Assembly (NCBI RefSeq): GCF_037031225.1
Contig: NZ_JAYEZN010000001.1
Coordinates: 2,418,001 to 2,482,000, forward strand
DNA from: Halorientalis sp. LT38
Lineage (GTDB): Archaea > Halobacteriota > Halobacteria > Halobacteriales > Haloarculaceae
Length of the DNA: 64,000 nucleotides
Reading direction: 5' to 3'
This document shows, one piece after another, positions 3,605 through 24,348 of this stretch. The notes under the pieces were generated by a model that ran no database searches, had not been told where the DNA came from, and saw nothing but the letters and a program-made list of their open reading frames with translations. The translations under genes were made by a program, and so were the position numbers. Each line of letters opens with the position of its first letter. The stretch's first letter is position 1.

Positions 3605-5095
3605 CTACTCGTCGGAGGGATCCGGGTCTGCCGGATCGGCACCCGATTCGCCAGCGGTGTCCGTCTCGCTCCCCGGCTCGGCGTCTTCCCCCGTGGCCGT
3701 CGCCGGCGACGATCGGTCGATGGTGCGGACGTTGACGCCCACCGGATCGCCGAAGCGCTCGTTCTCTGCTCGCGGGCTTCGCCCGCTCGCTTGTTCCGAG
3801 GCGCTTCGCGCCTCGCCCTCCCCTGACTCTGCGGCCTCGATGGCAGAGTCCGGGCCGAATCGCTCGTAGACGACCTCGCCGCGGACCAGCGTGAGTTCGG
3901 GGAACACCCCCCGTTTCCCCTCGAACGGGGTCCACCCGCACTTCGAGTGGAGGTCCTCGCCGCGGATCTCCCGGCTCGCTTCGGGGTCGACGAGGACGAG
4001 GTCAGCGTCCATCCCCTCGGCGATCTCGCCCTTCGTCGGCAGGTCGAACAGGTCGGCGACGTTTTTGGCCGTGAGGTCGCGGACGCGCTCGTAGGAGATG
4101 TCGCCCTCGCGGGCCCGTTCGAGCAGGAGCGGCAGGGCGGTCTCGACGCCGGGCACGCCCGACGGGGCGTCCCAGATGCTCGCGTCTTTCTCCTCGCGGG
4201 TGTGGGGCGCGTGGTCGGTGGCGACGATGTCGACGGTGCCGTCGACGACCCGTTCCCAGACCTTGCTGCGGAGACGCTCCCGGCGCAGCGGCGGGTTCAT
4301 CCGGCCCAGGGTCTCCAGGTCGCGGCTGTCCTTCCGCGAGAGGAACATGTGGTGGGGCGTCACCTCCGTCGTCATGCCGTGCTCGGCGGCGGCGTCGATG
4401 CCCTCGGGCGTCGAGGCGTGCGCGACGTGCAGGTCGGCGTCGAACCGGTCGCCAACTTCTGCGGCGGCGCGGACGGCGGCGGCCTCCGCGCGGGCGGTGC
4501 GGTAGGCGCTCCAGGCGTCGGCGTCCTCGCGCTCCTGGGCACCGGGCTCGAACTCCGTGGCGTCCTCGGCGTGGACGGTGACGACGGTGTCCTGCCGGGT
4601 CGCGGTCTTGACCGCGCTTGCAAACAGTTCCACGTCGATCCCCATCTCGCCGGTCGAGTCGGCGAGGAAGACCTCGCCGAGGGCGAACATGGGCCGCTGG
4701 AAGAGCGCGCTGGGGACCCAGTGTTCGGTGACGCCGCCGTTGATGCCGAAGTCGACGAGCGAGCCCTCGCTCGCTCTGTCCTGTTTCTCGTCGAAGGAAG
4801 CGCCGTCGATCGTCGGCGGGTCGGTGTTGGGCTGGTCGACGGCGCAGGTGACGCCGCCGGCCGCGGCCGAGCGGCTGCCGGTCTCCCAGGTCTCCTTGTG
4901 GGAAAAGCCCGGCTCGCGGAAGTGAACGTGCGCGTCGATCATCCCGGGCATGAGACGCTTGCCGCTGGCGTCGACGAACCGCTCGTCGGCGTCCTCGGGC
5001 ATCGGGAGGTCCTCGCCGACGGCCGCTATCTCTTCGCCCTCGACCAGGACGTCGCGCTGTCGACCGTCCGGGAGGGTCGCGTTCCGGATGAGCAT
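3605..5095 (-). CDS. pyrC: Dihydroorotase
   Basis: A 496-residue class I (allantoinase-type) dihydroorotase that closes carbamoyl-aspartate to dihydroorotate in pyrimidine synthesis. Visible signatures are the metal site DAHVHFREPG (residues 54-63), the DQPNTDPP loop, HAED and HAST histidines, and the catalytic TDHAPHT motif. The ATG at 5095 (MLIRNATL) is preferred over the GTG two codons upstream. The body appears to finish near residue 408 with LVRGEVVYERFG. It is followed by a Ser/Glu-rich stretch (about 411-448) encoded by three consecutive DNA hairpins, then a second ERFG and a disordered acidic tail. That insertion looks foreign to the family. Confidence 0.93.
   Translation of the reverse strand: MLIRNATLPDGRQRDVLVEGEEIAAVGEDLPMPEDADERFVDASGKRLMPGMIDAHVHFREPGFSHKETWETGSRSAAAGGVTCAVDQPNTDPPTIDGASFDEKQDRASEGSLVDFGINGGVTEHWVPSALFQRPMFALGEVFLADSTGEMGIDVELFASAVKTATRQDTVVTVHAEDATEFEPGAQEREDADAWSAYRTARAEAAAVRAAAEVGDRFDADLHVAHASTPEGIDAAAEHGMTTEVTPHHMFLSRKDSRDLETLGRMNPPLRRERLRSKVWERVVDGTVDIVATDHAPHTREEKDASIWDAPSGVPGVETALPLLLERAREGDISYERVRDLTAKNVADLFDLPTKGEIAEGMDADLVLVDPEASREIRGEDLHSKCGWTPFEGKRGVFPELTLVRGEVVYERFGPDSAIEAAESGEGEARSASEQASGRSPRAENERFGDPVGVNVRTIDRSSPATATGEDAEPGSETDTAGESGADPADPDPSDE
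3750..3867. repeat. In-frame hairpin block flanked by 13-bp direct repeats inside pyrC
   Basis: The direct repeats ccgaagcgctcgt (3750-3762) and ccgaatcgctcgt (3855-3867) differ at one base. Between them lie three stem-loops: gcgggc/gcccgc (3772-3786), gaggcgc/gcgcctc (3798-3814) and gactctgc/gcagagtc (3825-3850). Two of them have ttc loops, like the intergenic hairpins elsewhere in the window. The block keeps the reading frame. Confidence 0.75.
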
Positions 5096-21507: not shown

Positions 21508-22419
21508 ATGGAACTCGGCGTCATCGGACTCGGGCGGATGGGCCGCATCGTGGTCGACCGCACGCTTGCGGCCGGCCACGACGTGACGGCCTTCGACATC
21601 GACGAGGAAGCCGTCGCGGACGCGGCCGAGGCGGGCGCGACCCCCGCCGACTCGATCCCCGACCTCGCACAGCGACTCGGCGAGGAGAAACGGATCTGGC
21701 TGATGGTCCCGGCCGGCGACCCGATCGATGCCGCACTGGAGGAACTCGCGCCCCACGTCGACGGCGACGACGTCATCGTCGACGGCGGGAACTCGAACTT
21801 CCACGATTCGGTCCGCCGGGCCGAGTCCACCGAGGCGGCCTTCCTCGACTGTGGGACGTCGGGCGGCCCCGCGGGCGCGGAACTGGGTTTCTCCCTGATG
21901 ATCGGCGGCCCCGAGTGGGCCTACGAGGAACTGGTGCCCGTCTTCGACGCCGTGGCGACCGGACCCGAGGGCCACGACCGCATGGGGCCCGCCGGCTCGG
22001 GCCATTACGTGAAGATGGTCCACAACGGCGTCGAGTACGCGCTGATGCAGGCTTACGGCGAGGGGTTCGAACTGCTGGCGGACGGCCGATACGACCTGGA
22101 CCTCGAAGCCGTCGCGCGCACCTGGAACAACGGCGCAGTGATCCGCTCGTGGCTGCTGGAACTCTGCGAGGAGGCCTTCCGCGAGGAGGGCAGCGACCTC
22201 GGGACGGTCGCGGACCACGTCGCCGGCGGCTCGACGGGCACCTGGACCGTACAGGAGGCGCTCGAACAGGAGGTGCCGGTGCCGCTGATCTATCAGGCCC
22301 TCTCCGAGCGGTTCGGATCGCGCGCGACCGACGAAGCGCCGGGGCGGTTCTCCCGACGGCTCGCCAATCGACTGCGGTACGGGTTCGGCCGGCACGAGGT
22401 CGCGCGGCGGGAGGAGTAG
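21508..22419 (+). CDS. gnd: 6-phosphogluconate dehydrogenase, decarboxylating (short form)
   Basis: A 303-residue short-form 6PGDH converting 6-phosphogluconate to ribulose 5-phosphate and CO2 with NAD(P). It shows the Rossmann motif GVIGLGRMG (4-12), DGGNSNFHDS, the substrate loop DCGTSGGPAGAE, the catalytic lysine in GHYVKMVHNGVEYALMQAYGEG, and WNNGAVIRSWLLEL. Archaeal members of this form serve in the oxidative pentose phosphate pathway. ATG at 21508 directly precedes the first strand. The last 29 bases of the gene, including its stop codon, are repeated 212 bases downstream. Confidence 0.9.
   Translation: MELGVIGLGRMGRIVVDRTLAAGHDVTAFDIDEEAVADAAEAGATPADSIPDLAQRLGEEKRIWLMVPAGDPIDAALEELAPHVDGDDVIVDGGNSNFHDSVRRAESTEAAFLDCGTSGGPAGAELGFSLMIGGPEWAYEELVPVFDAVATGPEGHDRMGPAGSGHYVKMVHNGVEYALMQAYGEGFELLADGRYDLDLEAVARTWNNGAVIRSWLLELCEEAFREEGSDLGTVADHVAGGSTGTWTVQEALEQEVPVPLIYQALSERFGSRATDEAPGRFSRRLANRLRYGFGRHEVARREE
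22391..22419 (+). repeat. 29-bp direct repeat, left copy (gnd 3' end)
   Basis: This is the gnd 3' end, starting ggcacgaggtcgcgcggcg and ending gaggagtag. It recurs at 22603-22631 with one mismatch. Confidence 0.8.
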
Positions 22420-22695
22420 GTCATTGTACCGTGAGCGCGCTCGTCGCGCTCACGGGCCAAGCTCCGACCATCGGGAGGAGCGCAGGATTTTGGTCCAGCT
22501 TTTGCGAGTGAGCGGTGCGAGATACGAACGAAGTGAGTATCTCGATGGCGAACGGCGAAGCCGTGAGCCGCGCGAGCGAACGTGGCAAAAGGTGGTCCCG
22601 ACGGCACGAGGTCGCGCGGCGCGAGGAGTAGCTGTGGGTCAGCTTTGGGGCGGGAGTTCGTCAGTTAGATAAACCCGTATTCCGTACCGCCGGGC
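22420..22695. other. Palindrome-containing intergenic region after gnd
   Basis: No gene is seen. It contains gtgagcgcgctcgtcgcgctcac, gagatacgaacgaagtgagtatctc and ggcgaacggcgaagccgtgagcc stem-loops, then the second copy of the gnd 3' end (22603-22631), then a possible TATA element gttagataaacc (about 22663-22674) for the ferredoxin gene. Confidence 0.6.
22603..22631 (+). repeat. 29-bp direct repeat, right copy
   Basis: A duplicate of the last 29 bases of gnd including an in-register TAG; it differs only at one position (gcg versus ggg in the middle). The 183 bases between the copies hold hairpins. Confidence 0.8.
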
Positions 22696-23277
22696 ATGGT
22701 TAGCACTGTGGGAATCGCGCTCGGTGCGGTTCTGACGCTCGTGGCCGTCGCTCTCCACTACTCGAAGGGGACCGGCTGGGAGACCAACGACGACATCTCC
22801 CAGGAGGTCCTCGAGAAGCGGGCGGCGACGGTCCCGGAGACGGAGTTCCCGGAGCCGATGAACCGCTCGATCGGCGGTGGCGGCGTCGCCGCGGGCGCGG
22901 TCGCCGGCGGTTCGGAGGGCGAACTCGCCGAGGGCGAAGAAGCGGAAGACGACGGCTTCGACCCCGACGCGATCCCGGACGACGAGATCGAGACGTACGA
23001 GATCGAGTTCGCCAAGGAAGGCGAGACCATCGAGATCGCGAACAACGAGAACATCCTCGATATTGGCGAGGACCAGGGCTGGGACCTGCCCTACGCCTGT
23101 CGCGAGGGCTCGTGTCTCTCCTGTGCCGGCCACATAGAGGAGGGCCCGGCCGAGGAGTACATCCGGCACAGCAACAACGACACGCTCAACGAGGAGGAGA
23201 TGGAGAACGGCTACTGTCTGACCTGTACGGCGTACCCGACTGCGGACTTCACGCTGGAGACCGGCGAGCAGCCCTGA
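22696..23277 (+). CDS. Membrane-anchored 2Fe-2S ferredoxin
   Basis: A 193-residue protein with an N-terminal hydrophobic helix (STVGIALGAVLTLVAVAL), a Gly/Glu-rich linker and a plant-type 2Fe-2S domain from about residue 98. The cluster ligands are CREGSCLSCAG (CxxxxCxxC) and the distal Cys in NGYCLTC. The halophilic acidic insert DTLNEEEMEN sits before the last ligand, as in haloarchaeal ferredoxins. The membrane anchor is atypical of the soluble Fdx used by pyruvate oxidoreductase and suggests a membrane redox partner. The ATG at 22696 places the helix at the N-terminus. Confidence 0.85.
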   Translation: MVSTVGIALGAVLTLVAVALHYSKGTGWETNDDISQEVLEKRAATVPETEFPEPMNRSIGGGGVAAGAVAGGSEGELAEGEEAEDDGFDPDAIPDDEIETYEIEFAKEGETIEIANNENILDIGEDQGWDLPYACREGSCLSCAGHIEEGPAEEYIRHSNNDTLNEEEMENGYCLTCTAYPTADFTLETGEQP

Positions 23278-23328: not shown

Positions 23329-23401
23329 GGGCGGCTAGTTCAGTGGACAGAACGCCTGGTTCCGGACCAGATGGTCGGGGGTTCGAATCCCTCGCCGCCC
23401 G
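23329..23401 (+). tRNA. tRNA-Arg (anticodon CCG)
   Basis: A 73-base cloverleaf: acceptor gggcggc/gccgccc, D stem gttc/gaac, anticodon arm cctgg-ttccgga-ccaga with CCG at 34-36 (one C-A mismatch at 27-43), five-base variable region, T arm ggggg-ttcgaat-ccctc with one G-T pair, and discriminator G. CCA is not encoded and no intron is seen. Its last 18 bases are repeated at 24331-24348. Confidence 0.93.
23384..23401 (+). repeat. 18-bp direct repeat, left (tRNA 3' end; attL-like)
   Basis: cgaatccctcgccgcccg, the T-arm and acceptor 3' strand of tRNA-Arg. It is identical to 24331-24348. Confidence 0.85.
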
Positions 23402-23655
23402 TCCACCTTTTTCTTCGTCGGGTGACTCGCTTCGCTCGTCACCACTCCTCGAAAAACGTGGGCGAAAAAAGCCGAGTGCTCACTTCGTTCGCACTCGGTG
23501 AACCGGCGCGCAGAGCGCGCCGGATGCCTGTTTGAAATTCTTCACCGCAGGTACCGGCCCCCGTCCCTCAATTTTAGATGCCAGTTTGAGGTTACCGATC
23601 ACGATTTTATAATACTGTGCGCATCTTTATCATCGTCTGATACAAACGCTGAGTC
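23402..23655. other. Intergenic hairpins and promoter of the tRNA-linked insert
   Basis: Stem-loops ggtgactcgcttcgctcgtcacc and cgagtgctcacttcgttcgcactcg are followed by a palindromic unit (23498-23527). AT-rich boxes ttttataa (about 23605) and ctttatca (about 23625) precede the ORF; the second is correctly placed for a leaderless start at 23656. Confidence 0.55.
23498..23527 (+). repeat. Dispersed palindromic unit, copy 3 (diverged)
   Basis: gtgaaccggcgcgc - aga - gcgcgccggatgc. It has the same start, palindrome and ggatgc end as the 33-base unit, with one extra G-C pair per arm. Confidence 0.65.
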
Positions 23656-24162
23656 ATGTTTGGTGAAGGGAATCAAACGTATCAGCAAGTAGTGGAGCTG
23701 GTTGATGCGTGGCGGCCATCACAGAATTACGGTCACGAAAGCAAATTTCAGAAGGAGTTGTCCGAATTTCTGGACGAGGAACTGAACAGGCAAACGGGAG
23801 GGATTATGGGCGGGAATGGCGATAATCACGTAGTCAGCCGTGAACGTGGGAACTCCCGCGGTGATGTCGTCATTGATGACCTAGTCGGAATCGAGATGAA
23901 ACGGCATTTCTCGAACAGCCAGAAGAAGAAACTCCGGGGACAGTTGGAGGACTACGCCGACAATTACCCCTATGTGATCGCTCTCGCCTGTGGTATCGAC
24001 GACATGGATGGGTGGCGTGAACTAGAGAACAAATTCTCGGGAGGGCGCGGAATGGGAATTGACCAGACGCAGTTCTCGTTCATTATCAAGCGTCGAGAGA
24101 ATTTCGGCGATGACCACGACCTGGGTAGTGGCGGCGGTTTCGGCGGTATTCCGGGTATCTGA
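23656..24162 (+). CDS. Putative PD-(D/E)XK nuclease-fold protein
   Basis: A 168-residue protein of unknown family. Residues 61-100 fit a restriction-endonuclease-like core: SRGDVVIDD (Asp70) followed by GIEMK (Glu80, Lys82), i.e. D-x9-ExK, then a helix with Gln96 and Tyr100 (RGQLEDY). A Glu-containing helix (ESKFQKELSEFLDEEL) precedes it, as the fold expects. The Gly-rich C-terminus (GSGGGFGGIPGI) is probably flexible. It lies in a low-GC insert beside tRNA-Arg and precedes a tiny membrane ORF. A role in defence or element maintenance is a guess. No close homologue is recognised. Confidence 0.6.
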   Translation: MFGEGNQTYQQVVELVDAWRPSQNYGHESKFQKELSEFLDEELNRQTGGIMGGNGDNHVVSRERGNSRGDVVIDDLVGIEMKRHFSNSQKKKLRGQLEDYADNYPYVIALACGIDDMDGWRELENKFSGGRGMGIDQTQFSFIIKRRENFGDDHDLGSGGGFGGIPGI

Positions 24163-24211
24163 ATATGGACGCTACTGATGAAACCATCTGTTACCACGGG
24201 GGAGTACACTG

Positions 24212-24310
24212 ATGGCCGAGCAGGACCCGCTTCAGGGACTGCCTGACTGGCTGGTGTTACTGATGATCGTTCTGTTCCTGATCGGGGCTGCTATCGTTCT
24301 ATACCTGTAG
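24212..24310 (+). CDS. 32-residue single-pass membrane peptide
   Basis: The reading frame gives MAEQDPLQGLPDW followed by a continuous hydrophobic helix (LVLLMIVLFLIGAAIVLYL) to the C-terminus. Such a composition is unlikely by chance in a random frame, and the codons are of the same low-GC style as the nuclease-like gene 49 bases upstream. The gap between the two genes contains no hairpin, so they may be co-transcribed. A small membrane effector or holin-like peptide is possible; nothing in the sequence identifies a function. Confidence 0.5.
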   Translation: MAEQDPLQGLPDWLVLLMIVLFLIGAAIVLYL

Positions 24311-24330
24311 CCGATCACGCACTGCCAGGA

Positions 24331-24348
24331 CGAATCCCTCGCCGCCCG
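24331..24348 (+). repeat. 18-bp direct repeat, right (attR-like)
   Basis: An exact copy of the tRNA-Arg 3' end (23384-23401). The bases on either side differ, so the repeat is precisely 18 bases. No tRNA can be formed here. Confidence 0.85.

Follow-up and report, generated by a model that had tools for sequence, protein, structure and literature searches.

Why should a gene carry its 3' end twice, the second time beyond a block of hairpins? The question is raised by a 64-kb stretch of haloarchaeal chromosome (G000:C1:2418001-2482000; called the window here, with positions counted from its first letter), in which a gnd-like gene of the 6-phosphogluconate dehydrogenase family is followed by such a block and by a copy of its own end (Table 1). 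The terminal sequence of this gene (21508-22419) is CGGCACGAGGTCGCGCGGCGGGAGGAGTAG. As the sequence-only reading had it, the last 29 nt of gnd, including the TAG stop codon (22391-22419), recur with one mismatch at 22603-22631, at a start-to-start distance of 212, and the repeat can be extended to 30 positions. When ungapped direct repeats with a spacing of 60-600 bp and a score of at least 19 were sought across all 64 kb, the gnd repeat was one of four matches, the remaining three lying at 44-46 kb. The description of the intervening gap as rich in hairpins also proved right: the stretch folds better than 200 of 200 shuffled versions of it (z -3.64). The same gap between gnd and the ferredoxin gene is found in G080, a genome of the same genus, with an element that is 90% similar (match at query positions 6-211) and a 36/38 copy of that genome's own gnd end. 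Because this second genome has the same locus with element and copy, and because many other loci are similar, we reject an assembly error as the source of the duplication.

Table 1. Features of the gnd locus, in window coordinates
Feature	Position	Strand	Basis
gnd-like gene, 3' end duplicated	21508..22419	+	Pfam NAD_binding_2 and 6PGD on the ORF; translation
Left copy: functional gnd 3' end including stop codon	22390..22419	+	Direct-repeat comparison
Hairpin A, 11-bp perfect arms, 5-nt loop	22429..22455	+	Inverted-repeat search and fold
Element core	22485..22595	+	Full-length match to covariance model R2, 46.8 bits, E 1.6e-7 in own genome (G000:C1:2440485-2440595)
Conserved left motif TTTTGGTCCAGCTTTT, containing the left arm of the closing stem	22488..22503	+	Motif comparison
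Variable hairpin region of the element	22504..22586	+	Fold; similar hairpins elsewhere
Conserved right end AAAAGGTGG, right arm of the closing stem	22587..22595	+	Motif and covariation
Right copy of the gnd 3' end, 29/30 identical	22602..22631	+	Direct-repeat comparison
2Fe-2S ferredoxin gene, first downstream of the gnd block	22696..23277	+	Pfam Fer2

The block between the gnd copies belongs to a family of short, structured haloarchaeal elements found at gene 3' ends. Each element is laid out as TTTTGGTCCAGCTTTT, a variable hairpin and AAAAGGTGG. The terminal triplets are complementary in 78 of the 84 copies with a readable right end; the left triplet is other than CCA in 20 copies, 18 of which show the matching change on the right, against 3.7 expected if the two sides were independent. 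Across 20 hand-picked aligned cores, 98% of the cells are paired, compared with 90.9% in shuffles, and 16 cells have changed on both sides. Individual folds repeatedly have one mismatch in the closing stem, an internal loop of uneven sides and a long, variable hairpin; T runs are present on both strands within this covarying stem. In many cores the inner hairpin is flanked by a left-hand GAG and a right-hand CGA; these may form tandem G-A pairs, as a feature of a structured RNA or DNA. In the window element, the inner hairpin (22508-22580; query 88-160) resembles hairpins that are scattered over many genomes of the order. A known RNA family was considered and rejected, as Rfam at gathering score matched only RNase P and tRNA in the window and left the element unmatched.

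The 16-nt motif TTTTGGTCCAGCTTTT, with at most one mismatch, is present in 77 of 116 genomes of the order (surveyed with a requested completeness of at least 95%), while its backward-read control gave only a few matches. The covariance model R2, built from 20 hand-picked cores out of 68 kept, found four copies in its own genome at E <=1, three of them below 0.001. At E <=0.01 it had matches in 20 of 29 genomes, its own among them. Searches of the open papers in PubMed Central brought up none on elements of this sort with duplicated gene ends around them, nor did the motif appear in an archaeal context among the titles found there; the class with its gene-end duplication is apparently undescribed and unpublished.

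Comparison of the gap between gnd and ferredoxin in relatives, as had been proposed, covered 47 gnd loci (30 from a first set and 17 new ones). Element and copy occur together in five of them (G000, G080, G140, G161 and G232), and neither occurs in the remaining 42 by a pattern test, which missed one element-like block in the other orientation beside a convergent gene (L078, among the 42). None of the 47 was scored as having the element alone in the gnd-sense orientation. At the gnd locus of G178 (L248), GCGCGAGGAGTAG stands twice with a short spacer 3' of the gene, with no element; this is possibly the footprint of a lost module.

Other genes with repeated 3' ends were easily found, and similar cases abound across the order. 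Our first sample comprised all 96 distinct motif copies with enough flank, drawn from 90 loci (30 + 60 stretches) and chosen regardless of their flanks. Flanking direct repeats with a score of at least 18 are present in 16 of these 96, compared with 0.16% when left and right flanks were swapped between loci and with 0.35% for 576 positions drawn at random within those loci, an excess that led us to reject chance repeats. The repeats of this sample are 17-85 nt long and mostly duplicate the end of the gene directly upstream. Among the 16, the repeat of L181 lies within the element's own hairpins and not at a gene end, that of L126 looks like tRNA sequence (as does L118, with a score of 17), three come from a single array (L180), and L178 is counted with its gene unassigned. 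A second sample of 32 copies chosen by R2 has repeats of the same score in nine, with a control of 0.27%; it partly overlaps the first, since L254, L255, L262, L263 and L267 had been seen before, and among the new copies the count is 5/27. Further cases (L012, L044, L056, L060, L063, L080 and L096) were found through similarity to the window block or to gnd. The duplicated ends belong to gnd, to an M29 aminopeptidase and to several unidentified genes, and tRNA 3' ends are also duplicated around hairpin blocks. Many repeats are perfect (33/33, 43/43, 44/44, 52/52, 62/62 and 67/67), and in L190, L193, L195, L080 and L138 the right copy includes part of a second element. Neither of the two outcomes that would have spoken against the sequence-only reading, a lack of similar cases elsewhere and relatives with duplication but no hairpins, was found: such cases are abundant, and the element-free gnd relatives have no duplication.

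The right end could be recognised in 80 of the 96 copies (the other 16 were dropped), and 15 of these have repeats at a gapped score of at least 30 (control 0.3%). The remaining 65 have none, and not one of them gains a repeat even with a left flank of 690 nt. In these copies the element is often reversed, with its AAAAGGTGG end 0-4 nt from the stop codon of a convergent gene. For 29 of the 65, an open frame on the opposite strand has its stop no more than 12 nt from the CCACCTTTT end, compared with 40 of 692 control positions; 26 of the 29 stops fall 0-4 nt from the AAAAGGTGG end, and none of the 15 copies with repeats shows such a stop. The element thus lies at gene ends in either orientation; at protein genes, repeats are associated with elements that follow the gene in sense. 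A T run stands just after the stop codon, as in archaeal terminators. With its T runs on either strand beside hairpins and its position at stops, the element is probably a terminator for transcripts arriving from both sides. In a reporter in Haloferax volcanii, the T stretch T5C ended 95% of transcripts, according to the part of that report dealing with it (PMC7237163). The present elements are like these terminators in having T runs beside hairpins after stop codons, but the same part of the report describes the latter neither as a repeat family nor with gene-end duplications (PMC7237163).

The M29 aminopeptidase genes were compared in 18 genomes of Halorussus. Element and copy are present at nine of 18 loci of the a paralogue, counted by direct locus comparison because the automated gene-end finder apparently misplaced the end in L208, L216 and L222; for the b paralogue they are present at seven of the 12 loci returned. 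The MAG SW_6_65_15 has them as well, and Haloferax (4), Halorubrum, Natrialba (2), Halobacterium and others compared all lack them. L218, L222, L223 and L272 have the element with no clear copy, L227 has it with an apparently decayed copy, and at one b locus three elements stand in an array that repeats every 98 bp. The stretch between stop codon and core is specific to the gene, and the junctions fall into two kinds. The first, AAAAGGTG with a G or C and four further bases, then AGGTCGTCC, is found in several species and in both paralogues, and in near-identical form in G150, which belongs to another family; the second, AAAAAGGTCG followed by (C)TGGGACGTTCC, is found mostly at b paralogues.

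The one clean pair of an empty and a filled site comes from two sister genomes. In G220, which has no element, the M29 gene ends in GAGGAGTGA, a few nucleotides before its convergent neighbour. The right copy in G251, with the DNA downstream of it, aligns with this uninterrupted sister, whereas the left copy ends in GGCTAA and runs on into the element. The same difference in stop codons, TAA on the left and TGA on the right, is seen in G239. The right copy of G235 reads on into a C-terminus of another kind (ESEA*) and then into a remnant of a second kind of element, the same stretch that follows the b paralogue of that genome. The match of the G251 right copy to the element-free G220, together with the ends in G235 and G239, suggests that the native end may have been displaced to the right and that the left end may have arrived with the module. 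In G235 and G253 (L213, L217, L230 and L232), downstream sequence is common to the two paralogues, which are about 53% identical; this may be a sign of exchange between their 3' ends.

We tentatively favour, at somewhat under an even chance, a reading in which terminator-like modules of gene end plus element enter the end of a gene, displace the native end, and spread and multiply by recombination through the duplicated end. An element in sense orientation would form a module of gene 3' end, stop codon and element, upstream of a second, older copy of the gene end. Homologous recombination would carry such a module into the 3' end of a paralogue, or of the gene's counterpart in a different genome, with the duplicated end as second homology arm; the native end would be pushed to the right, the module would supply the working end, and the same repeats would then permit tandem growth into arrays, loss and homogenisation. 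Since the duplicated gene end gives a second homology arm, the module could enter any empty allele, grow, shrink and be homogenised, and since a second copy of the last bases follows the element, the host gene would keep an intact end. For the first duplicated allele, our guess is that it might have arisen by template switching at a hairpin during replication. Against the module reading stand the majority of copies that have no repeat (65 of the 80 with a recognised right end) and the M29 loci that have the element with no clear copy. Perfect repeats, moreover, are as compatible with gene conversion or local duplication as they are with import. In ten coding pairs, chosen for having mismatches (an eleventh, of unequal lengths, was left out), the two copies differ by 16 synonymous and 11 non-synonymous codon changes, a mixture that would not cleanly mark them as two functional alleles; we rejected this count as proof of import, for which it is only suggestive.

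The module reading has a more far-reaching form, which we judge unlikely: homing terminators, in which a selfish or useful module of gene end and two-way terminator would spread among genomes and paralogues of the same gene with no enzyme of its own, replacing the host's C-terminal codons and 3' UTR and leaving layers with the newest next to the gene. Spread of this kind would be possible because, with the copied gene end adjoining the element, recombination would find an arm of homology on either side in any empty allele. If this form is true, it amounts to enzyme-free spread in which the host gene's own end is borrowed as homology. Apart from this form, the family is a widespread class of haloarchaeal repeats at gene ends, which it remodels, and its arrays, layers and empty sites offer a natural record of the gain and replacement of terminators and C-termini.

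The array of three elements, the partial second elements in the right copies of L190, L193, L195, L080 and L138, and the perfect repeats are what one would expect if an ordinary terminator already stood 3' of the gene, if slippage or template switching at its hairpins doubled the gene end together with the element, and if the distal element then decayed. Such local tandem duplication is possible, although on the unlikely side: 42 of 47 gnd loci have neither element nor copy and none was scored with the element alone in the gnd orientation, near-identical junctions are shared across species and paralogues, and G251 has a left end unlike the native one in G220. A non-autonomous, transposon-like element that is moved by an enzyme and inserts at stop codons with a long and variable target duplication (about 20-70 bp) is quite improbable. 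No enzyme was identified, repeat length and repeat start vary widely, most copies have no repeats (0/65 even in the wide window), and the stop-to-core stretch is gene-specific at M29, although the dispersal of the family over 77 of 116 genomes, its exact placement near stop codons and the repeats at many unrelated genes would all suit such an element. Scars of integrative elements that use gene 3' ends as attachment sites for a tyrosine recombinase, since shrunk to a hairpin, are very improbable, for although tRNA genes are among the targets and regenerated gene ends are typical of such sites, the inserts are short and the same core is found at unrelated genes with unrelated repeats.

How does the family compare with known systems? 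Archaeal integrative elements with a tyrosine recombinase insert at the 3' ends of tRNA and other genes, where a duplicate of the 3' end regenerates the gene. Here, unlike there, a tiny non-coding core is shared and the duplicated sequence differs from gene to gene; instead of the same attachment sequence for the same element, we find one core with many unrelated repeats. Integron attC sites have conserved paired ends and a variable terminal hairpin and follow the stop codon. The present element is like attC in its paired ends, variable hairpin and position after the stop, and unlike it in having no cassette genes and carrying only a gene end. The SMR, PATE and MITE repeats of Haloquadratum walsbyi are described, in the sections of the report devoted to them, as short, palindromic, dispersed and transposase-free (PMC3119063), all of which also holds for the present element. 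According to the same sections, SMRs and PATEs make no target duplication, SMR-A lies mostly in other mobile elements, and the duplications of MITEs are determined by the helper transposase (PMC3119063). The present repeats are unlike those so described (PMC3119063) in that they are gene ends of 20-70 bp and that the sites are gene stops. Absence of target duplication, as in SMRs and PATEs, does not describe a family in which 16 of 96 copies have flanking repeats (0.16% in the control). The closing stem provides terminal inverted repeats as in MITEs, closing the core and not the whole inter-repeat stretch, but the duplications, at 17-85 nt and absent from most copies, are not short and of fixed length.

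The sequence-only reading had set the gnd block beside two others in the window, at a tRNA-Arg and at a pyrC-like gene, and had suggested one process that bounds hairpin blocks with copies of gene ends. A strong excess over swapped flanks and random positions, at many genes and in several families of the order, supports such a process well beyond the window, but the three window cases are not of one kind. The pyrC case is not a gene-end copy: on the minus strand at 3740-3870, an in-frame, hairpin-rich stretch lies within the reading frame of the amidohydrolase gene, between ACGAGCGATTCGGC and ACGAGCGCTTCGGC, which match at 13/14 nt and are spaced by 105 bp. At tRNA-Arg(CCG) the duplication is real, an exact 18-nt copy of the 3' end (window 23384-24348), but of a different kind, since it lies 947 bp downstream, beyond an A+T-richer stretch and with an open reading frame (23656-24162) between the copies that has no Pfam match; this stretch looks like a small integrated island. 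Five tRNA-Arg loci of the same genus (L071, L072, L073, L074 and L082) have two or three copies of the 3' end in all, about 80-120 bp apart, with hairpins and an inverted T-arm-like stretch between them. At the contig end of G000:C1 (L019), a 64-bp hairpin unit forms a tandem array.
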